From contig OY986966.1 in assembly GCA_963920575.1 (NCBI GenBank), forward strand, positions 6,329,236 to 6,393,235: a DNA stretch of 64,000 nucleotides, in the 5' to 3' direction. The stretch's first letter is position 1, and each line of letters opens with the position of its first letter. The position numbers and the translations under genes are program-made. This stretch comes from Narthecium ossifragum (Eukaryota > Streptophyta > Magnoliopsida > Dioscoreales > Nartheciaceae). The notes beneath the pieces are model-generated. The model searched no databases. It had not been told where the DNA came from and worked only from the letters and a program-made list of their open reading frames with translations. Shown in pieces: positions 3,708 to 32,632 of this stretch.

Positions 3708-6251
3708 ATGGCTTCTGCTCCTGCGTAAGCCCTCCAAACCATAGGAATTCTTATGCTTATGCTCGTTGTTGTAGTGATTTTTCTTGGCTTAAATGTTGTT
3801 GATTTGATTTGGTGTAGAAGTATCAAGGAACCCCTCCCACCTGTTCTTGATTCGACTTCCAACCCACCTCCCCTGTTCGATGGAACCACCAGGTAAATCG
3901 GCCTTTCCCCTTCTCAAAATCTCGTCTTTTTCATCCTTTCGTTCAGGTCCAGGGCTCGTATGCTTTGTGGATTGATTGCTTATTGTGCTTTGAATCCTTC
4001 TGGGCTGTAGGTTGTACATCTCTTACATTTGCCCTTATGCTCAGCGCACCTGGATTGCTAGGAACTATAAGGTAACTTTACGTAGATTTGAATTTGCTCC
4101 TCTGATGTTGCTTCTAGTTGAGGCATTTCGATGGTTTAAGATTAATTAAGTTCTTGGTGGTGCTTTTGGGTAATAGGGTTTGCAGGAAAAGATAAAGCTT
4201 GTCCCTATTGATCTGCAAAACAGGCCGGATTGGTACAAGGAGAAGGTTTACCCCGGGAATAAGGTATATCCATCTCATGCCCTTTCTCTATCTTTTAGTT
4301 GCAGGTGATCCTTGCGTTTATATGTTATAACCAGTGGCAACCATAATAAAATTCATATCTCATACGTACATCTTTACGGTTTGTGGAGCTTATTAATTTG
4401 ATGAGCATCGCGGTGTACAGGTACCTTCCTTGGAGCATAATAATGAGGTCAGGGGAGAGAGCTTGGATCTTGTTAAATACATTGACCAGAATTTTGAAGG
4501 CCCTGCATTGACTCCTGCTGTAAGTGAAGAGAATATATCATCTTGGCTAAAAAGTTCCTTTTATTCGACTATCTAACATGTATGCTGAAAATTTTAGGAT
4601 CCTGCAAAGCAACAATTTGCAGAGGAGTTGCTGTCTTACTCTGATACATTCAACAAAGTCATTTTCTCTGCATTGCCTGCTAAGGGTGATGTGGGTGCAG
4701 ACGTTGGTAAGTAAGGGAAAGTTGTTGACATGTGTCGGTATTCTTGCACTTGGTTAAGTGAATATGGTATTTTGGTTATTTTGCATCAGGTGCTGCCTTT
4801 GACAAATTAGAAGATGCTCTGTCAAAGTATGATGATGGACCATTTTTTCTTGGCCAGTTTAGTTTGGTAAGTACATATTTGTATTTGCTAAAAATTGCTG
4901 AGGTTTTTATCGATTTGTGACTTTTTTTAATTGTTAGAATGAACTGCAACTTTTAGGTTACCCTGTTTCCTTATGTGAAGCTGTATGACAACCCTGCTCA
5001 GTCGTAGTCTTCTAGTAATCACCTCTGCTTCTATCAGTGTTCTGTTTGATTTAACCATGTTGATCTTTGCGGTGCTTTACTTTAATCTATAACTTCCTTT
5101 ATAAAATATCTTTTGGCTTAGAAAGGCACCTTACTCCCTCATTCGGCTCCTATCAGTTTTCTGCTCTGGTCTTTTAGCTTAGATACTTTCATGTCATGCG
5201 CGAGCATTTTTATATCTGTAACAAACTTCTGAACTTTACTTGCTTAGTTGCTTATAATCAGTTTCCAGAACTTATTATTACAACCTTATTGTTCTATGTT
5301 CTGCATGATTAAAATTTTTTGCCCACCTTTTAATTCGGTTGTTTGCTGTATCCTTCTGGTCATGTTTATAGCCTGGCTGGATTCTCCAATCTGGTGACTT
5401 GCATACATGCATGATGCATGTTGATAGTAAGGTCATTCTTTGTTGCTTTAGAAGGCTTGAATCTTGGAAGTGCATGTGCTGAAATTCAGATGTTAATTGC
5501 TGTTACCATTTTTTTTGTGTATCTTTCAGATGTTAATAGCTTATGCTAACGCTTTAATGATGACTTTCAGACCTTATCAAGTTTAGGCAGCTTAATATCT
5601 CCATATTGAATTCTTTTGCTTCTTTCTTTTGGTTTAACATGTTCTTGATGACACTAAAATGTAGGTGGATATAGCATACGCTCCATTTATTGAAAGGTTT
5701 CAGACTGCCTTCTCTGAAATTAAAAAATATGACATCACTGCAGGCAGGCCGAAGCTTGCATCATGGATTGAGGTATCATCATTATTGTTCTTGCTAGTTA
5801 GATGTTTTGCTTATAACCTCCGTATGTTATGCTTTGGCCTTGATTGACATGCAAATGATTGTGTGAACATGGTGATCTATCTGCTCCGTATGTGTTCATG
5901 ATTTGAATCTTCACAGGATTAAATTTGATGCTTTTCAAGACGAATTAATGGTGATCATAGAATAAGTGACTCAGTAGAAACTTCTTTTGTGATTATGGAT
6001 TGATGTATTCTTGCTATGGTAATAAGGTCTATATACTCTGTTTTTAGGAGTTGAACAAGATAGATGCATACAAGCAAACTATATGGGATCCTCAGGAGCT
6101 ACTAGCTATCACCAAGAAGTGGCTAGGGGTATTTCTTCTCCAGTAGCTTCATTTTTTCATTTCATGAACTTCAGTAGAAAAAGAAATATATTGGCACTCA
6201 TTGTATCTGACATTTCTCATGTTCTCCCAATTTTTTTTCCAGATTGAATGA
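3708..6251 (+). CDS. GSTL: Lambda-class glutathione transferase (In2-1-like), copy A, 10 exons
   Basis: Coding exons: 3708-3724, 3818-3892, 4011-4071, 4177-4263, 4421-4519, 4598-4706, 4790-4866, 5665-5772, 6048-6128 and 6243-6251. All introns are GT-AG and together the exons encode about 240 residues, the normal length for the class. The N-terminal thioredoxin-fold domain carries YICPYAQR with Cys38 in the catalytic position; a cysteine in place of serine is the mark of Lambda GSTs, which act as glutathione-dependent oxidoreductases (deglutathionylation), probably in the cytosol since no transit peptide is evident. VPSLEHN and GESLDLVKYI match the glutathione-binding region, and the helical C-terminal domain follows (DDGPFFLGQFSLVDIAYAPF). 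No stop or frame break was found. Against copy B it has V-I-F-S for V-A-Y-S in exon 6, and W for R/K-type residues in exon 9 (QTIWDP, KKWLG), suggesting relaxed constraint. Upstream are TGACG boxes. Confidence 0.92.
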
Positions 6252-6513
6252 AGGGTTTTTGTGCCTATTCGCAAGTTAGTTTGTAAGCTCTGGCTCGTGT
6301 ATGTTCTCTCAGAACTCTTTCGCATATGCATGCACAAGTTTTTGTTAGGTTGATATGTTCATGTTTTGTGAGCATGCAAAATGTTTTGCTAATACACAGG
6401 TTCTAGGACTTGCAGTTTGACTCGAAGATGTTGGCTGGTCTCAACATCTGGCTCATGGAAGTTCTTTGCAATCATATGGAGCTCATTGAATAAGACCTTT
6501 AATGCTTGTAGTC

Positions 6514-6519
6514 AATAAA
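6514..6519 (+). terminator. Probable polyadenylation signal of GSTL-A
   Basis: AATAAA about 260 bp after the stop codon, in the context GTCAATAAAATATG. It is conserved in copy B at 52947-52952. Confidence 0.45.
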
Positions 6520-7492
6520 ATATGTGATGGTATTGGATGCCAGAACATGGTATTTGTGGTTTTAGGGCTCTTGTTCACATGGTGTCCATAGTAAACTGCA
6601 TTTAGTAAATGCTGCTTATGTACTGAAACGTACTGTAATCAAAATCATGATGTCCTGATGGCTTCTTGTGTTTGATACCTCAATGCAGAGCTATGTGAGG
6701 TTTTGCATTAAAATCTCCAGTATGGTATCTTGATTTGTTTTGCTTGGGCAAAATTGTCTGATTGGTGAAGAGGCACAGGGGAAACTTATGCTTCTTGGTA
6801 CAAGTATCAGTGCATAAAGCGCTGGTTGGATCCCCAGGTAATATGAAAAGCGTGTATTTATTAGTATTTACATGTGTTTGGTTAGAAACCAACAAAGCTT
6901 CAGTTTGGTCATTATCTATCTTCGACTGTATCTTTCCAAAACCGAACTCCATCCAAATCTTGCCCTCATATCTGAGCTAAATACCTGGTATGTAATATAT
7001 TAGCTTCTTTGGTTAACCATTATGTTGGATATAGCCTATCTCGCCAAACCCTTTAGCTCTAATGTTCAGCATGTTCTTGATGCTACATTCAGCTCTGGGC
7101 TCTTCATTTGGCTGCTACTTCACTGCTTAAGACTATTGGTCCACCATAAACGTCGCTAGGTATCTTATTGCTGAGTGTGATGTCCTCTCACAAGTTTATT
7201 TTTTCTTCGATTGTACATCTTCTCAGAATTGCTTCAAGTTACCACTTCTGCAGGATGTTACCATAATCTTTTTGGAAAATAGGTGGCCATGATCTTATTC
7301 AGAATCACAGAGTGGGCCAGCATTGTGCTTCAGCACCAGATGTGCTTAACATGACCTTTGTTCCCATTGTTTCCCTTCTGGACGGACTGCTTCTGGTTAA
7401 TAATTTAGCTTGCAGTTGCTCTATATTCGAGTGTAAGAGATAAGTCATTGCTTAATATAGTTTTGTCATTATCTTTTGAATGCTTGGCTTTC
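6520..7492. other. GSTL-A downstream region, no gene seen
   Basis: Nearly identical to the region after copy B. Short ORFs here are not maintained as coding. It probably includes decayed remains of a tandem GSTL unit, because a relic GSTL exon follows. Confidence 0.5.
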
Positions 7493-8020
7493 TTTTATGC
7501 GTATGCGAAGTTGTCTTCGTATAGTCGTACGCTTTTGTCTCCTTTGATCACTCCTCTGGTATGACTGGTCTTGGGGTAGTTTGCATTGATGATGAAGACC
7601 TTGTTTGCTGGTCTGAGAGCAGTAGCTGCAGAAGCAGTTCCGTCCTTGCTGGGGAGCTGAGCGCTATCCTTGCCGCTATAACTCGCGCCGCACAACAAGG
7701 GCTCAGACATTTACATGTTGAGAGTGACTCTACAGGCTGTGAACATGATAGAGGGAGGCATGCCTTTGGTTGAAGACTATAGGAAGCTGGTCCAAGAGGT
7801 ATGGTGGATGTGCCGCATGGTGGCCGGTTCCGAGTCTTCTATATCCCACGCGAAGAGAATATCCACGCTGACTGGCTAGCTCGCGAGGCACTCAGATTAT
7901 GGTTCGCTTTTGGCAATGTCGGAGAGCCCGAGGGGTATGTCCCGGGCCCTCTAGCTATTTCTGGTTTGTAAACACCGCTCTTAGCCATTGGGCTCAATTA
8001 ATCAAAAAAAAAAAAAAAAA
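7493..8020 (+). mobile_element. 5'-truncated LINE fragment: RNase H domain and poly(A) tail
   Basis: The sequence is absent from block B. In broken frames it encodes an RNase H-like domain of plant L1-type LINEs: GMTGLGVVCIDDEDLV, then LAGELSAILAAI, then HVESDS, and in another frame VFYIPREENIHADWLARE. It ends in a run of about 17 A (8004-8020). At least one frameshift near 7733 and in-frame stops break it. Compared with block B, a segment of about 39 bp was lost at the insertion site and no target duplication is visible. Confidence 0.85.
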
Positions 8021-8078
8021 TTGAAGAAGCTCTTTCAAAATTTGACGAGTGCCTTTTTTCCTTGGCCAATGTAGCCTG
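8021..8078 (+). pseudogene. Relic of a third GSTL exon (block A)
   Basis: The sequence TTGAAGAAGCTCTTTCAAAA and what follows matches GSTL exon 7 (FDKLEDALSKYDDGPFFLGQFSL), and it still ends at a GTAAGG donor at 8079. Its 5' part was replaced by the LINE. The fuller version is at 53931-54023. Confidence 0.7.
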
Positions 8079-8530
8079 GTAAGGACTAAAGTTATTTCAC
8101 AAAGAGAGATTAAGCGAAAGAAAACCACTTAGCTAAACCTCTGTAACTTGGTATATAGAAGGGCCAAAGTAGCCAGCCACAAAAAGATGACGACATGGAC
8201 ATGTACAGAGAAGGGCCACAACATGAAGAGCTACAAGGACATATATTTACAGAGAGGACAACCTGGTGTATACACTCAACATGGACCTGTAAAGAGAGAG
8301 GACTTAGTAACCCTATGTATACATTCATGAACAGCCACCAGAACGCCTAATAACTTAATTGGGTACTGTGCGAAGTATTTGATATTCGAGGAAGAAATAC
8401 CATTTAGGTAATATTTTCGAAGGAGGTGTAAATGGATCGGCGGGTTCACCAATCATTGATGGCTCTAGAACCGCTAAGCCCTGCGTTATATGCAATAGTA
8501 CTAGGAATTATTACCGGTAAAATATGTAAA

Positions 8531-13223: not shown

Positions 13224-15838
13224 TGTGAGGACTCGTACCTCCAACCTGGTCCGATCGCGTTAGGTCGAGGGCCTGGGTTTGTGGTTTGGCCCGGTTGGCC
13301 TTGGTATGCGATCGGTTGATCGCATCGCTGCTTTTGACCCCAGTGGCATTTTGGTAAATATGCTCCCTGGTGGTCAGTTTCACACCCGCGTTGCACACAT
13401 GGCCTTTGATTGATGTATGTGTTTGATTAGAACCTTTAGGGTGCGTCCGATCGGAGGATCGGAGCTCGATCGGGAGAGATCGAATCGGACGACTGTGATG
13501 GATTCCAGTTTTCTATTTAAGCCTTCCTTCTCTCTTTCTTTCTTTCTTTTCTTCTCCTGCGTTCTCTTTCTTCTTCTCTCTCTCCTTCGGCTGGATGCTA
13601 GGGCATTCGGAGGCGTGGCTTCGAGGAGCGGATTCCGGCGATCAGAGTTGGGGGATGCGTGGAGGAGCCGCCCTTTCCTTCAAGTAGGTGTTTCTACCTC
13701 GATCTTTGGATCGGGTTCTCCTAGGATAGGTTTAATGCCTTTTCTCTATAGAAATACATGTTAGAATGTTGTGTAGCTTGTAGCACTTGTGATGTGGCTT
13801 GTTTCTTGTATTCCTACCCCGCGACTTCGGCATTTTAACGGCTGGTTTTCCGTATTCTCGTCGTTTATCGGTTTTTGGTCTTTTTAACCTAAGTTGGAGA
13901 TTTAACCGTCAAAAATGGGATTTCTTTATATCATTGGTTTCCCCATCATCTTTTATGCATGCTTGCAAAGTTTCATCTATTTCCAACTTGAATTGATCCT
14001 TGAAATCCAAGAAATTGGATTTCCGGCACTATTCTGATGAACTGTGCCTAAGGCTCGACGGTCGATCGGGGCATCAACCGTCGAGTATTGTTTTACTCTT
14101 TCTGGGCCTGGCGGTCGACCGTCGGATCGACCGTCGGGCTCTGTCGCGATTTTGGACTCCCACGGTCGATGGATCGATCGACCGCGGGATCTTCTTCTTT
14201 CCGCCATTTACCTGACGGTCGACCGTCGGATCGACCGTCGCATCGACCGTTAGGTGCTGTTTGGTTTTGGGCTCCCCAGGGTCGATGAGTGGATCGACCG
14301 TCGCCCTTTGGTTTTCTTCGTGATGGCCTCACGGTCGACCGTGGCATCGACCGTGACATCGACCGTGGCCTCACGGTCGATCGGCGGATCGACCGTCGCA
14401 TCGACCGTGGGCCCTTAAACAGTGTTTTCTGGTCTTTCTCAAATGGCTTTCAATCGTGATTGATCTTTAAACATATTGGAAAGTTTTTAAATGGATTTTG
14501 TAGTGTTTCAAGGGATTTCTATCGAGTTTGAGGATCGATTCGAGTATTTCCCGTGTTAGGCAAATCTATGGTTTTGATCGCATTTAATACATGTTTGATA
14601 GTAGTTAAATGCTTCTTTGATTGTCTAACCATTAGTTAGCCATGAGTGCTAGCTAATGAGGAATTGTGAAACCTTAGACTCTTGCCGGCGGTTGCCGAGG
14701 GCTATGGTATAAGTGTGGCCAGTTACCTACGGGGTAACTGTGGAACCTTAGTCTGTCAGGTGCAAGAGAGCACTGAAGGCTATTGTATATATGTATTCAT
14801 GCTTTGCTCAGATGTTTGTTGGTCAGCATAGATATTCTATATTTGAGGCCTTTGCTATGCTTACCCTTTGGCTAGCTGTAGGCTATGCCTAGCCCTGTAT
14901 GATTAGTGACATCTTGTTGCATGCTTATATCTTGTTATCTGTGCCTGAGCATTGCATGCATCTTGATTGCATTAGAGGCATTTGAGGTTAGGCGGGCGAT
15001 GGGTTGATCGCCGATCCGAGGCTCTCGGGTAGCTCGGATCTAGCCATTAGGACCGCGACTGGGTAGTCAGGATTAGGGTGTGATTGTGTAATCAGAATCT
15101 CATGTTATTGAGGATGCACGCTAGTTGACTCTGATTAGTGTTTGAGGTTTAGAGGTCGTGTTGGTCTCCCAAGGCCAAGTGCTAAGGATGGTTGCCGGTG
15201 CCCCTGACATGGTCCCCAGGCAGTGGCTTCCTGCTGGGTAAGGGTGATCCTACTGGTTCTGTTTCTCTGTTTCCTCCCAGCGTGTTTGGAGAATGTGTCC
15301 CAGCGTGGTCGGTTAAGAAGAGTAGGAGCCTTGGGGTAGTCGGCAGGGGTTGTGGAGCCCCGTGGCATTTCTTAGACTTGTGCGGGGAGACAACACTGTT
15401 GTTGTTTTCCTCCCTTCAGTGTGCCGTAGAGTACAACCCTACTGAGCTTATCGCTCACTCCTACCCGTGCTGCGTTTGCAGGTGCAGGCGCCAGTTCTTC
15501 TTCAGTAGAGCCGGCGGATCAGCTTTGGTGGCGCGACTATATCCAGAGGTGCTTGAGGTTGCTGGAGGATAATTTGTTGTACTTTGGCAGTTTCGTAAAT
15601 TATGTACATTTTGAGAGCTTTTGAGATCATTGTATAGTATTCTTTCATTGGAAGATTTGTATCAAATATTGAATAGTACAACTGATGTTATGTAAATTGA
15701 ATTTATGTTCCACCTCTGGATAACATTTTGTTTAAGTTTTCTTTAAATTCCGCATTGTATCGCGCCAGCTGGAAAAGAATAGTGTAGGTTTCCCCTCACG
15801 CCTTGGCTCGGATGGGTTTTCTGGGTCGGGGTGTGACA
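13224..15838 (+). mobile_element. Solo Tekay-type chromovirus LTR (2615 bp) in gag
   Basis: Starts TGTGAGGACTCG and ends GGGTCGGGGTGTGACA, with 5-bp TSD TGCAC on both sides and no internal region. Solo LTRs arise by recombination between the two LTRs of one element. It carries an array of GATCGACCGTCG-type repeats (14044-14410) and the conserved CTCACTCCTACCC...GCAGGTGCAGGCG block (about 15450-15490). Confidence 0.93.
14044..14410. repeat. Array of GATCGACCGTCG-type repeats inside the solo LTR
   Basis: Many copies of GACGGTCGACCG and GATCGACCGTCG occur singly or as 12-bp tandem runs (for example about 14215-14250) separated by unlike sequence. GGTCGACC is palindromic. The array lies in the transcribed part of the LTR if the promoter is near 13511. 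Confidence 0.85.
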
Positions 15839-16394: not shown

Positions 16395-17926
16395 ATGTAC
16401 TGATAGATTATGGAGCGTCGCATTCCTTTGTTGCTAGCAAGTGTGTGACATCGCTAGGGTTAGAGACAGAGCCACTTGGGGTTGCACAACACATTGACAC
16501 ACCTGTTGGCGGAGGTGCTCGTGTTGAGTAGATTTATCGATCTTGCGAGTTGGAGGTTGGAGGCCTCCGTGTTCTTCTAGATCTTCGGGTGCTAGACATG
16601 GTCGGGTTTGACGTGATACTCGGTATGGACTGGCTGACATCATACTGAGCAGTCATCTACTGTGGTGGTCGTCAGGTGACTGCTTGGACACCGGATGACG
16701 TGTGGTTTGCTTTGTTGGGGGATCGCCAGTCGGCAGATTCCCTTGCTTGTAGTTGTTCTTCCAGACGTGAGGGCCAGCTATCAGCTTTACTGGCGCACCT
16801 TTTCTTGTTCACTGTAGAGGGCAGTCGAGAGAGCAGTTTACCACGGGTAGTTTGCGAGTTTGTTGACATGTCCCCAAATGAGTTGCCAGGTCTTCCACCT
16901 TACAGGGTCGTCGACTTCGAGATCGACCTCGTACCGGGTACCGGGCCGATTTCGTTATCAGCGTTCAGGATGGCACCGACAGAGTAGAGAGAATTCAGGA
17001 CACAGCTGGATGAGCTAGTGGGGCGAGGCTTCATTCGCCCCAGCACGTCACCTTGGGGAGCTCCGGTATTATTTACAAAGAAGGACGGCACACTTCGTCT
17101 TTACAATGACTACAAGAAGCTGAATAGCGTGACAGTGAAGAACAGGTATCCGATGCCTAGGATCAATGACTTGTTCGACCAGCTCCGAGGTTCGTCGGTC
17201 TTTTCGAAGATCGATCTCCGTATAGGCTACCACCAGCTGAGGATCCAGGATTGCGACATCCCGAAGACAGCTTTTCGTATGAGGTACGGGTTGTATGAGT
17301 TCACAGTGATGCCGTTCGGCCTGACGAACACACCAGCAACCTTCATGGACCTGATCTAGAGGGTCTTCCGACCTTATCTAGATCCGTTTATGGTGGTTTT
17401 CGTCGATGACATCCTGATCTACTCATGCACTGAGGAGGATCATGTGCAACATCTGAGGACAGTGTTGCAGTTATTGAGGGAGCATCGGCTGTACGCCAAG
17501 GCTTCCAAGTGCGAGTTCTGACTCCCAGAAGTGAAGTTTCTGGGGCATGTGGTGTCAGCGGCGGCATCTCAGTTGATCCAATCAAGGTCGAGGCAGTGCT
17601 ACAGTGGCATAGGTTGAAGACAGTGTTCGAGGTTCGCAACTTCCTTGGCTTGGCGAGATACTATCGGAGGTTCGTCAGAGACTTCTTCAGAGTTGCTGGG
17701 TCGTTGACCAGATTGAGTCAGAAAGGGGTTCCGTTCGTTTGGGACGATGCTTGCGAGCAGGCTTTCATAGAGTTGAGGGCGAGAGTGACGAGTGCACCGA
17801 TTTTGATCGTTCCAGAGAGAGGTGTCGGCTACAGTGTGTACTGTGACGCCAGTGGTGAGGGTCTAGGCTGCGTGCTAATGCAGGAGGGCCATGTGGTGGC
17901 CTACGGTTCCAAACAGTTGAAGACCC
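16395..17926 (+). pseudogene. Chromovirus pol: protease, reverse transcriptase, start of RNase H
   Basis: Protease: VLIDYGASHSF (about 16397-16430) with Y where S or T usually follows the catalytic D. Reverse transcriptase: [12 protein letters not shown], then [18 protein letters not shown] and FVDDILIYS (17399-17425). RNase H begins YSVYCDASGEGLG (17828 on) and is cut at KQLKT by the Athila insertion. In-frame stops occur at several points (for example 16985, 17357 and 17519) and the frame shifts before 17509. Normal order and motifs place it in the chromovirus lineage. Confidence 0.92.
17922..17926. repeat. Target-site duplication GACCC (left) of the Athila element
   Basis: GACCC at 17922-17926 is repeated at 31652-31656. 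The host RNase H frame continues across the two copies (KQLKT to [11 protein letters not shown]). Confidence 0.93.
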
Positions 17927-19002
17927 TGACTCACCTTGAAATGTGTCGTTAATTATATCAAAGGCGGACAAAACAAATTTACCGAACTACTACTTAACTA
18001 CAACGTAGTTAATGGGAGTACGGGTCGAGTCCTCGGAAAATTGGATGGTCGACTTAATGGATGCAATATAATCTCTACAATAGTTGAAAACAATTTGATT
18101 GATTTTAAAGTTGTTTAAACTAAAGTATTCTAGAAGCAATTAACGCTAAGAAATTTATCAAGGAAGATGTCCTAGGGAATTCTAATCCGAATTAGGTCTA
18201 AATATTTTCTCTATGAATAAAAATGAATAACATTTAAATGAGATAGTCGAAATTAGGGATCAACGAGCGTAGGATTAGTATCGCTCGTCGCTAATGAGAC
18301 GTCGGGTTAGGATCATCTCATCGTGTGAATTACAAGGTGAAAATCCATGATCGTGGCTTTAATTCGATCATAGCTCAACAAATGCCGACTTAAGGTCCTA
18401 TTGTTGGCAAGGAATCAAGGCTTTGTATGACTAAGGTCTTGGATTGAGGTGGATTTAATACCTCAATCCAATCCTCCATCTAAGTCAAGAATGGAAAGTA
18501 GGATAGCTTTGACTTGAGGTGGTTCTAGCACATCAACATCCTATCCTAAGGTCAAGAGTTAGCCATGGTTCTAACATGACCTACTCTTTGAGGAATTTCA
18601 TCAAATACCTAGCATGCATCTAATACTCGAGCAATTAAATGCAAATATAGATACTCAAACCATTCAAGAGTAGACTTTATTGAAGAAATAAGGAATTGAA
18701 TCCGAATTCATACAAAGATTCCATCTCACAAACGTTATTACATCAAAGATTACAAGAGAAATCTAAAAGTAACACCTAAGACATCATAGAATTCCCAAGG
18801 ATGAGGATTTTAGTTACTCATCTTGGTTGGACGATTCATAGGAAGAGAGGTTTCATCCATCTTCTTCATTGATCTCCACCTTTTGAGCCCTAAATCCTTG
18901 GGAATTGGAGGAGAAAACTCAAGAATATAGAGGGGGAACGAAGGCTAGAAAAGAGAGGGAACCAGAGAGAAAAGAAGATCCTCCAATTAGAGCCAAAACC
19001 CC

Positions 19003-19010
19003 TATTTATA
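19003..19010 (-). promoter_or_regulatory. TATA box of the Athila 3' LTR
   Basis: TATAAATA on the minus strand in a CTATAAATAGGG context, 64 bp downstream of the first palindrome of the array. The same site in the other LTR is 31084-31091. Confidence 0.7.
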
Positions 19011-19073
19011 GACCCCAAGTCGTGGATCCTCGGATTAGATCCGAGCCGTCCATTTATAACCGTCATCGATCTT

Positions 19074-19402
19074 GGATCGATCCGAAGTAAGATTGGATCG
19101 ATCCAAGATGAGCAAAAGATCATACCTTTCTGTGGAAAGGAAATATGGATCGATCCCATTTAAATGTGGATCGATCCAATTTGTACCCAAGAATAAGTGC
19201 TCTTGAGAAGAGAAATATGGATCGATCCCATGACGTTTTGGATCGATCCATTTTGTACCGATCTCTCTTGGAAGAGATATTTGGATCGATCCATTAAGAA
19301 ACTGGATCGATCCAACATTGGATAAGAAATATGGTCTTCTGGAAAAAGATCGGGATCGATCCAAAATGTCCTTGGATCGATCCAAATTGTCCGGATCGAT
19401 CC
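19074..19402. repeat. Paired GGATCGATCC palindrome array in the Athila LTR
   Basis: Eleven sites start at 19074, 19095, 19147, 19168, 19219, 19240, 19283, 19304, 19353, 19374 and 19393. They form five pairs, each exactly 21 bp apart, plus one extra site 19 bp after the last pair. The 11-nt spacers within pairs differ in sequence (GAAGTAAGATT, CATTTAAATGT, CATGACGTTTT, ATTAAGAAACT, AAAATGTCCTT), so only their length is conserved. The array lies in U3 immediately upstream of the TATA box. Confidence 0.97.
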
Positions 19403-19580
19403 GAATTAAGCTGAATCTGTATAATTGATATCTTTTGGTTCGAAATCAATGCAACTCTCTTCGTAAGCTCTTGTACCTGAAACCATAAGAAAATATATTA
19501 AAAATGCATTGCTTGAGAGCTAACAAAGCCCAGTTGAATGGGTGAATTATGTATATTTTGTGACTTATCACACCCCCCAA

Positions 19581-21695
19581 CTTGAACTTTGCTAGTCCTC
19601 GAGCAAAGCAAAAAGACAAATATAATCTAACTAGCCACTTTCATAGGACTGACGATTGCACTTATCATGTGCAACAAGCCGTTAAACCCCTAGGTTTACC
19701 CTAGAGGACGAGTGTTGTCTCGTGAGGGTTTACAGTGATGATACCCACAAACATCCTATTTACAATTGAAATGCTAAGAAACCATACATCAATTCATATG
19801 TGATTTAGATTTACTCCACTGTCAAATAATAGAATCATGTGCACAATGATACCCTTCACATCACATAAGTATAAGAAATATGCTAATCAAGATATGGTTA
19901 TCACCCTTCAAAAACTTTAAAACACTTAATACAATTATAGTATAGTCAAGGAATCCAAATGTAGGATGTTACCGCACAAATATTTGGGATTTTCAAAATC
20001 AACCAAGTAAGGCCCAATCTGATTCAGTCATCTCAAGTATTTCACATGTTCGCTGAAATATAATATGGTTGCTCTTTATACTTTTCTCAATTAGTGTGCG
20101 ACCGTGCAATGTCATAATCCCTTAAGTTTTCTTTTGGGCCCTTGTAACGAGCTTTGGGTCAATGGCTCCCAAACCAGTTGGCTTTAGGGCATTGGGTGAT
20201 AAAGCACCCCTCGGACTTAATTGCTCAAACCCAAAAGGCTACGAATTATAACTAGTCATCACACATATTCTCTTTTTTTTTTCTTTTATATATTTTTTTT
20301 TCATTGGTATGTGACCGTGCAATGTCATAATCCCTTAAGCTTTCTTCTAGGCCCTTGTAACAAACTTTGGATTAATGGCTCCCAAACCAATTGGCTTTAG
20401 GGCATTAGGTGATAAAGCACCCCTCGGACTTAATTGCTCGAACCTAGAAGGCTACGGATTATAACTAGTCACCACACATGTATTTTTTTCATTCCTAAGC
20501 CGTTTGACGCGAACAATACACGTTGTTACGCACATTGCCCGGTTACTAAGCTTTCGGATTTCCCTACACGAGCATTGCCATTTTTGATTAAGCAAAACGT
20601 GTTTCCTACCTTCGACTTCTTAGTCCTTCAAGGTACCAAACTCAAATTGACTAATCAACCCCTCATAAGTGTGCGAATATACAATGATAATGAATTACTC
20701 AACCAACTTTAATATGTATCAAACGGGTTAAAGTAGATGAACAATAATATCCAAATCATGATTAGCAAATCCTTATAACTATGTGAAGTTTCGAATATAT
20801 CATACCACAATCATCCATAAAGGATAATTGAGTTGAATGTTTCACATAATCATTAATGCAAGTATCTCTCATTTCAAGTGTAAATAAAATTAAAATAAAA
20901 AAAAATGGTTATCATGCATGTAATGCATACCCCCCAACTTAAACGGGATTGTCCTCAAGCACGATTGAAGGGTAAGGGAAAGAGATAACCTGGATTGTTG
21001 TTTGAGAAACGTATAGGGTGTTCAATCTTGCAAGGAAAATGGACATATGTGAGGTATACGAATTAATGAAGAACATGACAGAATTGAGTTTAGTCAAAAG
21101 TAAATGTGAAATTTAGAATGTTAGAGAAGTGTAGTGGATGCCTTGCTTAGTCCAATGGCCTGAAAATACAACGAAGATATGCCACGTACAGTCAAATGGA
21201 AATAGAGAGAAAATTGAGATATGTTTAATAAAAATTGGACAGCACCTCCTTTGTAAATAGATGATAGCATAAATGCGTACAGCCTGTGAGAATACTGTAC
21301 ATAAAAGAAGTACACCCTCTAGCATAAAAATACAAAGAGTAGACCATTCATTTCACTTACCAAAAATACAGTTTACATCCGAATACAAAAATGAACACCA
21401 ACCCATAACCTTCCAACTATCCACAATACACCAATCAAAATAACAACCATCACAAGGTCCAAATTATCATTAACACAATACAACCATTAGAATAACAACC
21501 AGCAAGTGAAAAGATCAAGCCATCCATCAGACTATGTATCATATAAGCAAAAAGAAGTCTCCTTTACAACCAACCATGGCATCATGAACTTAAAAATGTC
21601 ACCATGCCCAAGCATTAACAACACCCCAAAAAAAAAAAAAAAAATTACAATTCCAGTGAATGTCATTATCATCAATAAAGCTACAACCACAGCAA
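19581..21695. other. Athila 3' untranslated region
   Basis: Apart from the direct repeat at 20097-20485, no coding sequence was recognised between the polypurine tract and the env-like ORF. ORFs in this stretch are short and lack domains. Confidence 0.6.
20097..20485. repeat. Direct repeat of about 170 bp, offset about 212 bp
   Basis: GTGTGCGACCGTGCAATGTC...TAACTAGTCATCACACAT is repeated from about 20310 with roughly 90% identity. The two copies are separated by a T-rich stretch. It lies in the untranslated 3' region of the Athila element. Confidence 0.85.
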
Positions 21696-23030
21696 CTATC
21701 CACTCGTGGTCTCCTCCGGCTGATCCGACTGCCCGGCTGCTGGGATGGAGGTGTCCATAACTGGCTGATCCGCTGGTAGAGTGCTGACATCTTCCGTCTG
21801 CGTGGAGGTCGAAACAGTAGCTGCCGTAGGGCCATCAGGACATATTTTTGCTAAATATGCCAAGACTTGTCGCAAGTCCTGGCGAATTTCCTGATGAGAT
21901 GACGTGACGTCCACCCTGAGGTTGTGCAAAGAATGTTCAACTTCCTCCAATCGTGTGTTCATAGAGAGGCGAAAATCCTCCAATTCGGAAATTGAATCAT
22001 CCTCCGAAGGGGATGATGGGACCTGTGGATTAGGCTCAGGTGCTGAAGGTGGAGGAGGAACAACTGGTGGAACAACCGGTGGAACAGGCTGCCTACTAGC
22101 TAGAATGGAGGCAATTTCCTGTTGAGCTTTAGCCATTTTAGAAATGATCTTACTCCAAGTACTTTGGCCAAAGAAGGAAGAGGATGGGGCCTCCATACTA
22201 GGTTCATCAGCAGGAAACCAAGATTGACGCGCAAGGAAAGCAGAGATGAGACAAGGATGTGGAAATGGCTTTGTCTTATTCTTGTTATCAGCATTTTTAT
22301 GAAAATATTCCATGTCATTGAGAATTAGGGATGGAAAAGGAATGGAAAAATTATGAAGGAGACACCACAAAACCCATAACCAATCACCTATGCGGCATTG
22401 AGGGTGGGCTATCTGAAAAACATTCCGACGTAGAACATCATCGATGAACCACAATTGTTCATCTAGTTCACGTCGGAAAATCTCGCCAGTGTAAGCTCAG
22501 CCTGGGACGATTTCAGACGCAACCCATTTTCGAACGGTGGCATCATAACGGGTAGCAGAGGATGCGATAGGAATATTTAAAATTTTACTGATGGTTTTAG
22601 CTATGAAAACTACAGGATGACCCAAAATTTTAGATGTAAACCCTGGGCAATTCGTATTCTTAGATGACTCTGGTGGAATAATTTCCAGATTTTGATAGAA
22701 AAGCCGGATTAACCTAGGATAAATGATTCTACTTGGTGAGCAAAGCCCTAAAGCTCGGTGTTGCTCCAAAAAACGAATCGAAGCTACTGATTGTGCATGA
22801 TTGCGGAAGAACGGGATGTCAAATTGGAATTCAAATTCAAAGTCACGGTTTTTCCAAAGTTCAAGAACAACATCACCAGTGGTATCTGGCTCTGAAACTC
22901 GACTGCGCTTGCTTGGTGATTGAGGAGGTGGTGAAGCGGAGGCGGACGGTTTTGCCGATGAAGAAGCACCCGGAGCACCCCGTTTCTTCTCCGGTGTCTT
23001 CTTGGTTGCAAGCTGCTTCTTTGGCCTCAT
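21696..23030 (-). pseudogene. Athila env-like / extra ORF downstream of integrase
   Basis: The frame starts at ATG 23030 (MRPKKQLATKK, basic and serine-rich) and is interrupted once by TGA at 22497-22499. It then continues in the same frame to 21696, about 440 codons in all. The first half carries LIRLFYQNLEII and ILGHPVVFIAKTISKILNIP, resembling the plant-transposon-protein domain found in the ORF after integrase of Athila elements. The second half has proline-rich PPVVPPVVPPPP and a heptad-like segment (LRVDVTSSHQEIRQDLRQVL), probably a coiled coil. I see no convincing signal peptide or membrane anchor, so an envelope role is unsupported. A palindrome array and CT-rich leader precede the ATG. 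Confidence 0.75.
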
Positions 23031-23206: not shown

Positions 23207-23639
23207 GGATCGATCCAATTAGGACTTGGATCGATCCCAAACACGTGTCATGATCGCAGATGGTGACTTGAGTGACGTGGCAAGTATCTGGATCGATCCC
23301 AATTAGACAAGGATCGATCCAAATGGTGACAGAACGGCCCTTTTTGGAGGTCATGTTGGATCGATCCAAACAAGGGTTTGTATCGATCCGAAGACACGAT
23401 TCCGGATAGATCCAGGATAATTTGGATCGATCCAAATTAAATGTGGATCGATCCAACCAGTGACAGAACGGACCTTTTTGGAGGTCATGTTGGATCGATC
23501 CAAACAAGGGTTTGTATCGATCCGAACACACGGTTCCGGATCGATCCAGGACAATTTGGATCGATCCAAATTGTCCCACCAAGTATTGTGCTTACTGAAA
23601 GAAAAGTGTGGATCGATCCTAATTAATGTGGATCGATCC
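23207..23639. repeat. Second palindrome array, inside the Athila element upstream of the env-like ORF
   Basis: Fifteen GGATCGATCC-type sites start at 23207, 23228, 23290, 23311, 23358, 23380, 23404, 23424, 23445, 23492, 23514, 23538, 23558, 23610 and 23630. Neighbours within pairs are 20-22 bp apart. A few are degenerate (GTATCGATCC, GGATAGATCC). About 135 bp appears as a local duplication (about 23335-23460 and 23465-23585). The array lies about 180 bp upstream of the ORF start on the minus strand. Confidence 0.93.
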
Positions 23640-24041: not shown

Positions 24042-27000
24042 TCAATTTTGACACTCTTGGGGTACTTCCAACATCATTGTAGCTTCTACAGGAAGCTCCA
24101 TAACGGCATCATCAATATAGGGCTTCAATCGTTGGCCATTTACCATGAACCTATGCTCAGATTTTGGATGTTGAATTTCTATAGCTCCATGGGGAAAAAT
24201 TTTAGTAATCACAAATGGTCCAGTCCATCTTGATTTCAGTTTGCCCGGAAAAAGCCGAATGCGTGCATTAAAGAGCCACACTTTTTGTCCAACTGTGAAT
24301 GTTTTTCGTTTAATAAATTTATCATGCAACTCTTTGGTGTGAGCTTTATAAATCATGGAGTTTTCATATGCTTCATTTCGAAGTTCCTCCAATTCATTTA
24401 TTTGAAGTTTCCTATGGCTTGATGTATCATTTGGTTCATAATTAAGTTGTTTAATAGCCCAATAGGCCCGATGTTGAATTTCCACCGGTAGACGGCATGG
24501 TTTGCCAAAGACCAATCGGAATGGTGACATCCCAATTGGTGTCTTATAGGCGGTTCTATACGCCCATAATGCATCATTGAGCTTTAACGCCTAATCTTTC
24601 CGGTCAATTCTAACAATTTTCTCTAAAATACGCTTAATTTGCCGATTTGAAACTTCCACCTGGCCACTTGTTTGAGGGTGATAAGGAGTGGCTACTTTGT
24701 GTGTAATGCCGTATTTCTTAAGCAAGGCATTAAAATGATGATTTGTAAACTGAGATCCCCCATCACTTATGATCACTCTAGGAAATCCAAAACATGTAAA
24801 AATATTAGCTTGAACAAATTTCAACACAACTTTGTGATCATTAGTCTTAGTGGGTAATGCTTCAACCCATTTAGACACATAATCAACTCCTACTAAGATA
24901 TAGGAATACCCATTCGAAGGAGGAAATGGTCCCATGAAGTCTATCCCCCAAACATAAAAAATTTCACATACTAGAATAGGATGTTGGGGCATTTCATCTT
25001 TTTTAGAAATTGTGCCAACTTGTTGGCATCTAAGACAAGATTTAGCAAAATTATGAGAATCTTTAAAAATCGTTGGCCAATAAAAACCACATTCAAAGAT
25101 TTTTGCCGCGGTCTTTCGTCCCGAAAAGTGCCCTCCACACGGGTGGGAATGGCAAAATGTGAGAATAGACGCGATTTCCGATTCCGGAACGCATTTTCTT
25201 AGCATTTGATCGGGGCAACGTTTGAATAGATAAGGATCATGCCAAAAATAGGAGCTGATGTGAGAAAAGAACTTGGTTCGGTCACCCTTAGACCAAGAGG
25301 TTGGAATTTGGCCGGTGACTAAATAGTTGACAATATGAGCAAACCATGGATTGCATGCTTGACTAATTGCTAAAAGAAATTCATCGGGAAATCCATCATG
25401 AACTGGTGTCGAATCAAGAATAACATCGGATGGAAGCCGAGAGAGATGATCGGCAACAACATGAGACGATCCCTTCTTATCTCTTAATTCAAAATCAAAT
25501 TCTTGAAGAAGTAAAACCCAACGAATTAGTCTAGGCTTTGAATCTTTTTTGGTCACTAAATATCTCAAGGCAGCATGATCGGTGAAAATGATGACTTTTG
25601 ATCCAAGAAGATACGATCGGAATTTTTCAAGTGCAAAAACCACCGCTAAAAGTTCTTTTTCAGTTGTGGTGTAATTAAGTTAGGCATCAATCAAAGTTTT
25701 ACTTGCATAACAAATCACACAGGGAAGTTTGTCAACCCGTTGTCCCAACACGGCACCCAAAGCAAAATCGGATGCATCACACATTAATTCGAATGGAAGT
25801 GAATAGTCCGGTGGATGAACAATAGGAGCCGAGGAAAGAGCATCACGAAGAATGGTAAAGGCTTGAAGACATGAGTCATCAAAAATAAACGGTGCCTCCT
25901 TTGCAAGCAAGGTACATAAAGGCCGTGAGATTTTACTAAAATCTTTGATAAAACGTCGGTAAAAACCCGCATGGCCTAAAAAAGAACGAATTTATCGAAC
26001 CGACGAAGGAGGTGGAAGTTTTGAAATGATTTCAAGTTTAGCTTTATCGACTTCAATTCCTCTTTTAGAAATCACATGTCCCAAGACAATACCCTCTTGG
26101 ACCATAAAGTGGCTTTTCTCCCAACTTAAAACTAAGTTGGTCTCTTCACATCTTTTTAAAACTTTTTTAAGATTTGTCAAGCAAAATTCAAATGTTTGTC
26201 CAAAAACGGAGAAGTCATCCATGAAAATTTCTAAAAAATGATCAATCATATCTCCAAAGATTGAAATCATACATCTTTGAAAGGTTGGCAGTCTTCGATA
26301 TGAAAAAGTGCCGAAAGGACATGTAAATGTAGTTTTCTCTTGATCTGTAGGATCAATGGCTATTTGATTGTAAACCGAATATCCATCAAAAAAACAATAG
26401 TAACTTTGCCCGGCTAATCTTTTCAAGATTTGATCAATGAATGGTAGTGGAAAATGATCTTTTCTCGTAAAAGAGTTTAATTTTCCATAATCAATACATA
26501 CTCGCCAACCCGTGGTTTGACGAGTAGTGATGCTTTCTCCTTTTTCATTTTTAATTACAGTTATGCCCGATTTCTTTGGCACCATTTGAGTAGGGCTTAC
26601 CCATTTTGAATCCGAAATTAGGTAAATAATCCCCGCATCCAAGAGTTTAACCACTTCTTTTAATACCACTTCTTTCATATTAGGGTTCAACCTTCTTTGA
26701 AATTCCCTTACCGTTTTATCTTCATCCTCAAGATTGATGCGATGCATGCATATGGTAGGATCAATGCCTCTAAGATCGGCAATCGACCACCCAATGGCTT
26801 TTTTATGCATGTCAAGGATTTTAAGTAATTCCACCTCTTGTGAACTTGACAAAGATGAAGAAATGATTACCGGTAAGGTTGAGTTGGACCCAAGGAAAGC
26901 ATATTTGAGGTTTGAAGGAAGAGGCTTCAACTCAAGGTTTGGAGGTTGTACTAGTGAAGGAAGCGACGGAGAAGATGATGTAATAGGCAACGGTTCAAGA

Positions 27001-28445
27001 TATGGTTTTCTTATTGACATCTCACAAATCTCATCACATAAATCCACATTCAAAGCCATTGATGTATTAGCACACAACATAGAGTCATACATTTCTTCAC
27101 ACATGTCATACACATTTTCATCAATCAATGTTGTGGTCATAATATCTTCCACCTCTTCATCCATATAATCAACACAATCAACCAATAAACAATCATTGTC
27201 ACACGATGGAAACTTAGAAGCATGAAAGATATTTAATCTCATTTCCAGATTACCAAAGGTGACGGTCATCACCCCATTCCTACAATTAATCAATGCATTG
27301 GCCGTAGCTAAGAATGGGCGACCTAAAATGATTGGTACATTTTTCTTAAGTTTCATTCCGGGTTCCATATCAAGAAAAACAAAATCCACCGGAAAAACCG
27401 CTTGCTCCACCTTAACCAATACATCTTCAACTATGCCCATAGGTTTTTTAATTGACCTATCGGCAAGTTGGAGTGTCATTGCCGTAGGTTGAAGTTCTCC
27501 AATCCCATATTCACAATATAGAGAATAGGGTAAAAGATTTACACTTGCTCCTAGATCAAGCAATGCATTTTCAATCAATTTATCCCCTATAATGCATGAA
27601 ATGGTTGGTGTTCCGGGGTCCTTGAGTTTAGGAGGTGTATCAAATTTAAGAATTGAACTTACTTGCTCGGTTAAAAGAATTTTTTTAGACACATGAGACC
27701 GAGTTTGGCGTTTATGTGTGCAAAGTTCTTTAATAAATTTAGCGTATGATGGTATTTGTTTAATAGCATCAATTAAAGGAAGATTAATTTGAACCTTCTT
27801 AAAAATTTCCATCATGTCCTTTAGCTTTTGACTCTTGAAAGGAGGTGATGAAGGATTGATTAAAGCCGATGGAAATGGAGCTTTTGGAATGTAATTTTTA
27901 ATAGATGGTTCATTTTCCATTAGTGGTGAATCAATAGGCTTTGATGACAACTCATGACTCGATGATGGCTTATGAGATGCATGAGATGTATTAGACTCAT
28001 GAACAATATGTGACGATGGAGATGCATGTTCATGTTCTACTTCTTTAGGCATTTCGACATTGTTATAAGTCTTTCCACTTCTTAGAGAGGTTACTGCTTG
28101 TACCTCTTCATGGGTCGATTCAACACAATGTTGGCCTTTAGGGTTCATAATAGGTTGACTTGGAAGTCTACCTTCTTCCCTTCTTGCTAAAGAGTTAGCA
28201 ATTTGACCCATTTGCATTTCAAGTTTAGAAATAGATTGAGAATGAGAATGCAACAATTGGGTACTTGATTCAAAAGAATCCAATGCTTTAAGAAGTTTTT
28301 CTTCAAGAGAAACATTTTTAGGTGCTTGTGTAGCTTGTGGAGGTGCTTGATATGTAGGTGATCGTGGTTGGTAATGTGATGATGGTTGATAGGATGGTTG
28401 ACCATAATTTGGTGCATGAGTTGGAGGAAAATGTGGTTGAGGTGG
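24042..28445 (-). pseudogene. Athila pol: protease, reverse transcriptase, RNase H, integrase
   Basis: One continuous frame broken by stops at 25992-25994, 25680-25682 and 24591-24593, ending at 24042. Protease: ALLDLGASVNLLP (about 27545-27585), the D-L-G form typical of Athila. Reverse transcriptase: GWRVCIDYGKLN, then FPLPFIDQIL, and FMDDFSVFG (about 26200-26230). Between SYRRLP and TFQRCM the usual block with GLCNAP is missing, an 8-residue in-frame deletion that should abolish activity. RNase [13 protein letters not shown] and VVADHLSRL. Integrase: zinc-binding HPCGGHFSG...CLRCQQ, core WGIDFMGPF and ISDGGSQF, and a C-terminal [19 protein letters not shown] segment. There is no chromodomain, as expected for Athila. 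Confidence 0.95.
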
Positions 28446-29760
28446 TTACGATTGATAAGGACCTTGATGTTGAGGTGGAGGAAAATGTGGTTTTTGAGGG
28501 TAATTTGAATTATTATTATTTATTGGTGGAGGTCTTGGATTATATGGTGGCATTGGTTGTCCGGGATTCCTCCATGAGAAATTAGGATGATCTCTAAGTC
28601 CGGGATTATAAGTGTTGGAGTATGGATTATAATTGGGCTTAGATTGTCCATATATTGCATTAATATGTTCTTGGACAAGTTCGGGGTAATCATGAGCTAA
28701 GTGACAATCGGTCACATTATGCCCCGGTGTAGAACAAAGAAAACATAACTCCCCCGAAGGTGGAGAAGGAGAAAAATTCGGCAAAGAAGGGGAAGGAGTA
28801 GTTGGCAAGTAATTTGGTGATGAAGAGCTATTAGGAATTTGATTCAAAGAATAAGCAAGGACTTGATCAAATTTCTTATTTAATGCATCAATTTGTTGTG
28901 CTACTCGTGTAGCATCAGATAATTCTAGGACTCCCCTAGGATGAGATTGTTCTTTAGAATTATTTTCTATGACATTTCTAGATGTAAATGCATGATTTTG
29001 TGAATTTATAGCAAGTTTACCAAATAATACCCAAGAATCCTCATAAGGATTTGTCATGAATACCCCCACCACAAGCCGTATCAACATCTTGTTGGTGGCG
29101 TAATTTAAGGACATTATAAAAATAGTCTACAAGAGACCATTTTGAAATTTGGTGATGAGGACACTTCCTTAGAAGTTCTCTAAACCGATCCCAAGCATCA
29201 TGGAATGGTTCATCATCTAATTGACGAAATGTAGCTATTTGAGTTCTCATGGCATGGGTCTTGGCTATAAGGTAAAATTTCTCTAGGAAAGCACTTTGTA
29301 ATTGCTCCCATGTAGTAATTGTTTGAGGTTCTAAAGATCCAAGCCAATACTTGGCTTTACCTTTCAAAGTAAATGGAAACAATTTTAATTTCATAGCATC
29401 CTCGGGTAAATTGGGAATTTTAACCGTAAAACTCTTTTCAAAGAATTCTTCGAGATGAGTGTATGGGTCTTCATTAAGTAAGCCATGAAAATTTGGAAGA
29501 TATTGAAGAAATTGGGGTTTGAACTCATAATGGGCAGCATGTATAATAGGTTGTTGTATGCCCGACATAGGAGCAAAATTAGAAGGAACATAATAGTCCT
29601 TCATACTCCTACGATCTCTATTAATGGGATCTTGGTTGACACTATCCCCGTTAGGATGATGTCCGTTTTCCAAAGCTATAGACTTTTGTGTGCGCAAAGA
29701 TGTTCTAGAATCTAAGTATGCTTGCAAAGTAATATCTAATTCAGGATCACTTTCATTCAT
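28446..29760 (-). pseudogene. Athila gag
   Basis: Starts MNESDPELDI at 29760. The capsid domain reads YEFKPQFLQYLPNFHGL, then DPYTHLEEFFE, KYWLGSLEP and FLEKFYLIAKT. The frame shifts near a run of five C at 29063-29067 (complement), after which the second ORF continues with EDSWVLFGKLAINSQNH. A zinc knuckle CFLCSTPGHNVTDC (CX2CX4HX4C, about 28703-28744) follows, then a proline/asparagine-rich linker. A stop at 28446-28448 separates it from pol, with the same frame open beyond it. Confidence 0.93.
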
Positions 29761-30007: not shown

Positions 30008-31651
30008 TGACTCACCTTGAAATGTGTCGTTAATTATATCAAAGGCGGACAAAACAAATTTACCGAACTACTACTTAACTACAACGTAGTTAATGGGAGT
30101 ACGGGTCGAGTCCTCGGAGAATTGGATGGTCGAATTATTGGATGCAATATAATCTCTACAATAGTTGGAAACAATTTGATTGATTTTAAAGTTGTTTAAA
30201 CTAAAGTATTCTAGAAGCACTTAACGCTAAGAAATTTATCAAGGAAGAAGTCCTAGGGAATTCTAATCCGAATTAGGTCTAAATATTTTCTCTATGAATC
30301 AAGATGAATAACATTTAAATGAGATAGTCGAAATTAGGGATCAACGAGCGTAGGATTAGTATCGCTCGTCGCAAATGAGACGTCGGGTTAGGATCATCTC
30401 ATCGTGTGAATTACAAGGTGAAAATCCATGATCGAGGCTTTAATTCGATCATAGCTCAACAAATGCCGACTTAAGGTCCTATTGTTGGCAAGGAATCAAG
30501 GCTTTGTATGACTAAGGTCTTGGATTGAGGTGGATTTAATACCTCAATCCAATCCTCCATCTAAGTCAAGAATGGAAAGTAGGATAGCTTTGGCTTGAGG
30601 TGGTTCTAGCACATCAACATCCTATCCTAAGGTCAAGAGTTAGCCATGGTTCTAACATGACCTACTCTTTGAGGAATTTCATCAAATACCTAGCATGCAT
30701 CTAATACTCGAGCAATTAAATGCAAATATAGATACTCAAACCATTCAAGAGTAGACTTTATTGAAGAAATAAGGAATTGAATCCGAATTCATACAAAGAT
30801 TCCATCTCACAAACGTTATTACATCAAAGATTACAAGAGAAATCTAAAAGTAACACCTAAGACATCATAGAATTCCCAAGGATGAGGATTTTAGTTACTC
30901 ATCTTGGTTGGACGATTCATAGGAAGAGAGGTTTCATCCATCTTCTTCATTGATCTCCACCTTTTGAGCCCTAAATCCTTGGGAATTGGAGGAGAAAACT
31001 CAAGAATATAGAGGGGGAACGAAGGCTAGAAAAGAGAGGGAACCAGAGAGAAAAGAAGATCCTCCAATTAGAGCCAAAACCCCTATTTATAGACCCCAAG
31101 TCGTGGATCCTCGGATTAGATCCGAGCCGTCCATTTATAACCGTCATCGATCTTGGATCGATCCGAAGTAAGATTGGATCGATCCAAGATGAGCAAAAGA
31201 TCATACCTTTCTGTGGAAAGGAAATATGGATCGATCCCATTTAAATGTGGATCGATCCAATTTGTACCCAAGAATAAGTGCTCTTGAGAAGAGAAATATG
31301 GATCGATCCCATGACGTTTTGGATCGATCCATTTTGTACCGATCTCTCTTGGAAGAGATATTTGGATCGATCCATTAAGAAACCGGATCGATCCAACATT
31401 GGATAAGAAATATGGTCTTCTGGAAAAAGATCGGGATCGATCCAAAATGTCATTGGATCGATCCAAATTGTCCGGATCGATCCGAATTAAGCTGAATCTG
31501 TATAATTGATATCTTTTGGTTCGAAATCAATGCAACTCTCTTCGTAAGCTCTTGTACCTGAAACCATAAGAAAATATATTAAAAATGCATTGCTTGAGAG
31601 CTAACAAAGCCCAGTTGAATGGGTGAATTATGTATATTTTGTGACTTATCA
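30008..31651 (-). mobile_element. Athila 5' LTR
   Basis: Same length and termini as the copy at 17927-19570, with TATA box 31084-31091 and an equivalent palindrome array at 31155-31483. The differences seen are isolated substitutions, with no indel changing its length. Confidence 0.95.
31155..31483. repeat. Paired GGATCGATCC palindrome array in the Athila 5' LTR
   Basis: The same 11 palindromes at the same relative positions as the 3' LTR (offset 12081). The substitutions I noted in the array region fall beside the palindromes (for example ACTGG to ACCGG, TCCTTGG to TCATTGG), and all 11 cores are intact. Confidence 0.95.
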
Positions 31652-32632
31652 GACCCACGAGCGTACTTACCCCATCTATGATTTAGAGCTGGCAGCAGTT
31701 GTCTTTGCTCTAAAGACATTGCGGCACTACCTCTACGGTGAGCGGTTCCTGGTATACTCAGATCACAAGAGCTTGAGGCACGTTTTCACCTAGCGTGACC
31801 TCAACCTCAGACAGCGGTGGTGGATGGAGCTATTAGATGACTATGACTTCCAGTTGCATTACCATACTGGTAAGGCAAATGTCGTAGCGGACGCTCTGAG
31901 TCGACAGGCCAGAGACAGCATAGCGACTTTGGCAGCGTTGTCGGCTCGACAGTGGCAGATGATGGAGACGATTGGTCAGTTCAAGTTCAACTTCGACGAA
32001 CAGGCATCAGGCGGTTTCCTTTATGTTGTTCGCAACATTCCAATTCTAGTGACGAGGGTCGTAGAGGCACAGAGCAGAGATCCTGAGCTCGTGGAGATCC
32101 GTGCGGCGGTCGGCACCAAGTACGCGATCAAGGGCTGGACAGTTTTAGCAGATGACAGTCTACACTTCAGAGGCAATGTTGCGGTTCCAGCGGACCCAGT
32201 GCTGAGAGAGGACATCCTCCGTGAGTTCCATCACTCTACCTTCGCAGTTCATCATGGCAGCACAAAGATGTACCACGATCTTCGTCAATAGTTCTGGTTG
32301 TGCAGGATGAAAAGGAGTGTTGCTGAGTTCGTCTCCAGATGCCTCCCCTGTTAGAAGGTGACGACAGAGCACCGACGGACGCCGGGTCTACTACAACCAC
32401 TTTCAGTCCCAGAGTGGAAGTGGGAGGACATAGCAATGGACTTCGTCACCGAGCTACCCAGGACATCGAGGGGGAATGCTGCGATTTGGGTCATCGTTGA
32501 TCGGTTGACCAAGTCAGCTCACTTTCTCCCCATGCGGACCACAGAGTTAGTGTGGGGGCTGAGCCAGAGGTACATCGACGAGGTAGTCAGACTACACGGC
32601 ATCCCAGTATCGATAGTATCAGATAGAGACCC
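31652..32632 (+). pseudogene. Chromovirus pol, end of RNase H and N-terminal integrase
   Basis: Resumes the host frame after the Athila element: [36 protein letters not shown], then the integrase zinc-binding region (HHSTFAVHHGSTKMY) and core ([32 protein letters not shown]). Stops occur at 31792, 32289 and 32351. It is interrupted at SDRDP by the solo LTR. Confidence 0.92.

Follow-up and report, generated by a model that had tools for sequence, protein, structure and literature searches.

We analyzed a 64,000-nucleotide window of the Narthecium ossifragum genome and identified a complete Athila-type Ty3 element on the minus strand, with LTRs that were 99.2% alike and the TSD GACCC on both sides. 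This element carries the palindrome array studied here, and its main features are as follows:

17927-19570, minus strand: 3' LTR of the Athila-type element, 1644 bp, 13 differences from 30008-31651, TSD GACCC
21699-23030, minus strand: ORF in the env position, with its first Met at 23030 and a single stop at 22497-22499
23207-23639, unstranded: internal array, 12 exact GATCGATC sites (15 with at most one mismatch), 177 bp before the env-position ORF
24045-28445, minus strand: pol, three ORFs with protease (weak), RT, RNaseH and integrase, in Ty3 order
28449-29760, minus strand: gag, two overlapping ORFs with Retrotrans_gag and a weak zinc knuckle
30008-31651, minus strand: 5' LTR of the same element, with the same array at 31155-31483 and a TATA box at 31083-31092

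The domain order gag, protease (weak), RT, RNaseH, integrase placed the element in Ty3. The layout was as in Athila, with gag followed by protease-RT-RNaseH-integrase and an ORF between pol and the 3' LTR; the protease match was below the Pfam cut-off. In Athila elements, a primer site matching tRNA-Asp adjoins the 5' LTR. At the candidate primer site we found TGACGCCGTTGCCGGGGA 4 bp from the 5' LTR, and the exact start TGGCGCCGTTG had no match in the window. Athila is the best name for the element, judged from its layout and this candidate primer-site motif. The ORF in the env position gave two PF20167 matches below the Pfam cut-off and no DNA-binding domain at E 0.01 in Pfam; since these matches were weak and a simple hydropathy scan detected no clear membrane segment, we did not call it env. 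The Athila-type element sits inside another Ty3 element, with an RNaseH fragment to the left and an integrase fragment to the right. We called the interrupted element a chromovirus on the basis of a chromodomain match that was weak, at E 0.004, and fell below the Pfam cut-off. A search for relatives of the RNaseH-integrase piece yielded five stretches that fit the peptide patterns and no relatives by tblastn. Other repeats were also noted: a direct duplication of 185 bp at 90% (20082-20266 and 20296-20479) inside the element near the 3' LTR, direct copies of ~5 kb at 3473-8529 and 49839-54485 with pieces 92-98% alike, and three repeats of a 149-bp unit at 48658-49106.

The array in the 3' LTR and its surroundings were resolved into three features:

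19002-19011, minus strand: TATA box CTATAAATAG, 62 bp from the last palindrome
19028-19049, minus strand: conserved block between array and TATA box, sense ACGGCTCGGATCTAATCCGAGG, largely preserved among three diverged Athila-type LTRs
19074-19402, unstranded: U3 array, all 11 GGATCGATCC sites perfect, ten of them in five 21-bp pairs and the eleventh 19 bp from the tenth

The first-pass annotation had described eleven perfect palindromes in U3 near the TATA box, five pairs of them exactly 21 bp apart, with 11-nt spacers that share no sequence. All 11 GGATCGATCC sites were present, starting at 19074, 19095, 19147, 19168, 19219, 19240, 19283, 19304, 19353, 19374 and 19393. The gaps were, in order, 21, 52, 21, 51, 21, 43, 21, 49, 21 and 19 bp, which confirmed the five pairs and placed the eleventh site 19 bp from the tenth. 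The 11-nt spacers were near random, with a mean pairwise identity of 0.35 against 0.31 expected. Since the TATA box occupies 19011-19002 on the minus strand, the array is situated upstream, and its position in U3 beside the TATA box was thus borne out as well. The array occupies LTR positions 170-496 of 1644, so that 11 sites are found per LTR and 12 more inside the element; by direct composition it had a CpG o/e of 1.32 and a GC content of 41%. With at most one mismatch allowed, GGATCGATCC had 59 matches in the window against a shuffle mean of 1.82. When 11 sites were placed randomly in the same stretch, any one gap length occurred five times or more in 34 of 200000 trials, under a null that ignores descent.

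It had also been proposed that tandem copying was excluded, and this did not hold, since we observed both diverged units of ~70 bp and a 134-bp duplication. BLAST aligned 19073-19250 with 19146-19314 at 75%, palindromes included, and some of the longer spacers of the U3 array had pieces in common (e.g. TTTGTACC and GAAATAT), indicating that a pair unit of ~70 bp was multiplied. The five 21-bp spacings are therefore not independent, because the pair units are diverged ~70-bp tandem copies. The 134-bp duplication, at 91%, is younger and was found in the internal array. Tandem duplication in an LTR region that changes fast could have produced the array neutrally, its palindromes looking kept since the copies are young: the units of ~70 and 134 bp are visible, copying yields equal spacings, and the available part of PMC10342631 describes from Arabidopsis short interrupted repeats whose spacers are diverse, and similar sequences from ATHILA2 and ATHILA6A. 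On the other hand, the spacers of the U3 array have drifted to near-random identity while all 11 palindromes are perfect, and the palindromes were kept both across diverged LTRs and after the 134-bp duplication, where only 1 of the 14 differences fell within the 60 of 153 positions that are palindromic (one-sided p 0.009). The window also contained 67 exact GATCGATC sites as compared to three single CpG-decay forms (1 GATTGATC and 2 GATCAATC). We regard the neutral origin as very unlikely. The comparison of the 5' and 3' LTRs was uninformative, with 0 of 13 differences in palindromes where 0.87 was expected.

The palindromes recur in other LTRs of the window, and the following features were identified:

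14050-14415, plus strand: variant array following both a chromovirus-type LTR start and the TATA box there, with three copies of CGGTCGACCG and TCGA in 12-bp steps
32633-34127, plus strand: solo LTR A, Athila-type, TSD GACCC, 5 exact sites as pairs of 22 and 23 bp and one single
35112-35540, plus strand: chromovirus-type LTR start, CGATCGATCG at 35397 and 35506, 109 bp apart, TATA box 8 bp after the last
38748-40274, minus strand: solo LTR B, Athila-type, TSD ATAAA, 8 exact sites as pairs of 22, 23, 23 and 23 bp
55585-56500, plus strand: chromovirus-type LTR start, 3 exact GATCGATC before the TATA box (one pair, 22 bp) and 7 after
63245-63559, minus strand: chromovirus-type LTR start, two CGATCGATCG 20 bp apart, no TATA box matched

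By place, GATCGATC occurred 11 times in each Athila LTR, 12 times in the internal array, 5 times in solo LTR A and 8 times in solo LTR B. The chromovirus-type LTR regions contributed 10 sites at 55.6 kb, 2 at 35.1 kb, 2 at 63.6 kb and 1 at 13.2 kb, and five sites were scattered. The Athila LTR and the solo LTRs were 62-69% alike in aligned pieces; the solo LTRs are thus distantly related to the Athila LTR, and the window holds two lineages rather than many independent ones. Three of the five chromovirus-type LTRs had GATCGATC near their start, and their pairs were spaced at 20-23 bp save in one LTR (109 bp). The chromovirus-type LTR at 40.9 kb had no GATCGATC site, and the one at 13.2 kb had none before its TATA box, its single site lying after. 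The geometry of the variant array was unlike the 21-bp pairs. The TSD GACCC was common to the Athila element (17922-17926 and 31652-31656) and solo LTR A (32628-32632 and 34128-34132); the two lie close together, apparently in one chromovirus, and the shared TSD may reflect chance or a target preference.

An alignment of the three diverged Athila-type LTRs revealed that both TATA-proximal palindromes were kept in all ten columns, together with the block ACGG-TC-GATC-AATCCG-GG and CTATAAATAG. The spacers between these palindromes measured 11, 13 and 12 nt and had few letters in common, and the distance from the last site to the TATA box was 62, 61 and 62 bp in the Athila LTR, solo LTR A and solo LTR B, respectively. 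Judged from sequence comparison, this TATA-proximal footprint is the strongest evidence that the array may have a regulatory role, and the presence of the palindromes in distantly related LTRs nearby points to a regulatory switch. In the Athila LTR, another TATA-like stretch (TTATAAATGG) lies closer to the array; it was absent from the other two LTRs in the alignment. We also noted an inverted repeat, CTCGGAT-CTA-ATCCGAG, within 19028-19049, and much of its block was kept in the two other LTRs.

The wider motif comparison bears on a different possibility, in which an element-encoded protein would bind the clusters and lift silencing as VANC of VANDAL does, with motif and protein co-evolving so that the motif differs between related LTRs. 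The clusters are non-coding, one of them lies just ahead of a separate ORF, and related chromovirus-type LTRs do differ in motif letters. These points resemble what the available part of PMC5735166 describes for VANC targets, short non-coding motifs that have grown as tandem repeats and differ between related VANDAL elements, with VANC6 motifs found also in the unrelated AT9TSD1. That system differs from ours in being a DNA transposon with an element-encoded binder, and palindromes are nowhere mentioned in PMC5735166. Moreover, the ORF by the internal array offered only the weak PF20167 matches and no DNA-binding domain at E 0.01, and the same core occurs in two Ty3 lineages, which makes a VANC-like protein quite improbable in our view.

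To describe the spacing we used exact sites with the 5' LTR copy dropped. Among 42 gaps of at most 120 bp, 22 were of 19-23 bp and 20 were of at least 39 bp, while none of the 42 was of 1-18 or 24-38 bp. The counts at 19, 20, 21, 22 and 23 bp were 1, 3, 9, 5 and 4, and five of the nine at 21 bp were the reported pairs. Once one-mismatch sites were added, gaps of 4, 11, 12, 16, 24 and 30 bp also occurred. Per base, variation was lower in short spacers than in long ones (F 4.3 with p 0.0014 for 22 short spacers and 15 long ones, left of 18 after dropping the three longest; F 16.4 with all 18), although such p values are too strong and overstate independence, because pairs belonging to one array share descent. 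A fixed distance of 21 bp, as stated in the first-pass annotation, was not supported: the homologous TATA-proximal pairs were at 21, 22 and 23 bp, the short gaps between exact sites ranged over 19-23 bp, and the variant array at 14 kb had 12-bp steps. Exactly 21 bp is a property of the reported array, and the wider rule is about two helical turns. The suggested selection on geometry was therefore upheld in so far as the palindromes and the short spacing are more constrained than the spacer letters, and failed for the exact 21 bp. In viral_contigs we found no exact 21-bp GGATCGATCC pair. The prokaryote control gave 66 records with a GGATCGATCC pair (spacer 8-14), with up to six overlapping pairs in one record. 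By first pair, 22 of the 66 prokaryote records were at 21-bp spacing, more than an even spread over the seven spacings would give (p 0.0001, kinship ignored).

The letters flanking the palindromes were T..A in Athila; both solo LTR B and the 55.6 kb LTR had A..T. The flanks were symmetric despite these differences between arrays, the observed value at flank position 2 being reached in 0 of 2000 by a cross-array null; in solo LTR A position 2 was not symmetric (0.20). Left-right flank covariation was not detected within any of five arrays (p 0.25 to 0.94). Both Athila arrays folded far better as RNA than shuffles (z -11.2 and -10.9), as a palindrome cluster would. Six of 21 pairs folded better than with shuffled spacers at p < 0.05, and the pairs at 39943 and 56288, which exceeded all 300 shuffles, are left unexplained by a shared symmetric site. 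When the five-letter flanks of the 21 pairs were compared with flanks re-paired within arrays, complementarity was 53 versus 54.8 for the inner flanks (p 0.75) and 59 versus 56.6 for the outer flanks (p 0.30). Most of the folding excess can follow from the shared symmetric site, because the flanks were no more complementary than re-paired ones. A pair-specific hairpin reading was rejected on the same observation, so that the hairpin alternative raised earlier retains the better folding of six pairs and loses pair-specific complementarity. Secondary structure could still account for the array more broadly, through stems with 11-13 nt loops in U3 at the RNA 3' end, or through cruciforms, that would act in RNA dimerisation, packaging or as small-RNA templates; Sirevirus palindromes are small-RNA hotspots according to the available parts of PMC10760457 and PMC5311732. 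Good folding is expected of any palindrome cluster, however, and the kept distance to the TATA box fits DNA better. We consider a structural role unlikely.

The array is real, ordered and probably functional, with an architecture of a known kind. Our preferred reading, to which we assign a probability of about 0.62, is that it constitutes a promoter-proximal regulatory module of the Athila-type LTR, made of symmetric sites that are mostly paired about two helical turns apart and serving factor-driven transcription. The single sites would be bound by a symmetric DNA-binding factor, probably a homodimer and most likely host-encoded; the pairs may be bound cooperatively, and binding would drive transcription from the LTR. 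The internal array would serve the ORF in the env position in the same manner. Pair units were tandemly duplicated, after which the palindromes were presumably kept while the spacer sequence drifted, and the module would work like the palindromic repeated motifs of Sireviruses. Counting against this promoter module, the 55.6 kb LTR has 7 of its 10 sites after the TATA box, the LTRs at 40.9 and 13.2 kb lack sites altogether or before the TATA box, respectively, one-mismatch sites add gaps outside the 19-23 bp band, and solo LTR A breaks the flank symmetry.

Box I of tobacco Tnt1 is a symmetric activator box in U3. Its symmetry is cited in the available text of PMC2829016, and it can be likened to the array by symmetry and U3 place alone. 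Among the literature matches listed for GGATCGATCC, no title concerned plant LTRs. In the literature on Athila and palindromes, repeated motifs were found in PMC2829016 and PMC10342631 only, and not in the available parts of PMC11963269, PMC3414828 and PMC5738225. The accessible part of PMC10342631 describes SIRC of Arabidopsis as direct repeats, 10-29 bp long and sometimes palindromic, that are separated by unlike spacers; SIRC-like sequences occur in ATHILA2 and ATHILA6A. SIRC differ from our array in having 2-8 repeats and, as far as that part extends, no TATA link or pair spacing, and ~57% of the cassettes are without a palindrome. The LTRs of Del chromoviruses are similar in having a CpG-rich upstream part of variable length (a variable 5' CpG island), but differ in that PMC4029996 nowhere mentions palindromes and its available part has no such motif.

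The first-pass statement that no plant LTR enhancer of this form had been described was contradicted by the repeated motifs (RM) of Sireviruses, as set out in the available text of PMC2829016. There, 13 Sireviruses (Ty1/copia) are reported to contain 8 to 32 palindromic RM each, most of which lie in the upper LTR half, ahead of the TATA box. The clusters of RM mark out a predicted CpG island, which the TATA box follows by 37 bp on average, and RM copies are alike while their flanks diverge. In nine env-bearing elements, almost all linker RM copies lie upstream of env. The RM core is CGG-CCG, with Tnd-1 as an exception; no common site for a single factor was found among the RM, and this 2010 survey considered them Sirevirus-specific, as against classic Ty1/copia elements. 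Our element is similar to these in carrying at least 8 palindromes, mostly in the upper LTR half (here 11 per LTR and 12 inside), and in having the cluster shortly upstream of the TATA box (here 62 bp). To the RM before env may correspond an array 177 bp before an env-position ORF that has only weak PF20167 matches. In Table 3 of the same survey, the Vitis RM CGGTCGACCG is the palindrome of our 14 kb array, letter for letter, and the Tnd-1 RM ACAATCGATTGT shares the ATCGAT core. Unlike Sireviruses, which are Ty1/copia, our element is Ty3, with integrase after RT and RNaseH; its core is GATCGATC and not CGG-CCG, and pairing at ~21 bp has no mention in the available text of PMC2829016. In the literature searched, which included few subscription papers, no paper described the paired, TATA-proximal form for Ty3. 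That Ty3 Athila-type LTRs share this layout, and chromovirus-type LTRs a looser one, suggests convergence on one host factor or chromatin rule. We tentatively propose, as a rather doubtful extension, that palindrome clusters before the TATA box and the env-position ORF form a promoter grammar shared by plant LTRs, at which Ty1/copia Sireviruses and the Athila and chromovirus elements of Ty3 arrived separately, and in which one class of host factor would recognize dimer sites spaced by two helical turns. A concrete bait for a factor that may switch on several retrotransposon families would be a pair of palindromes at 21 bp. By analogy, we read the Athila-type module as the same kind of promoter module as the Sirevirus RM, in another superfamily.
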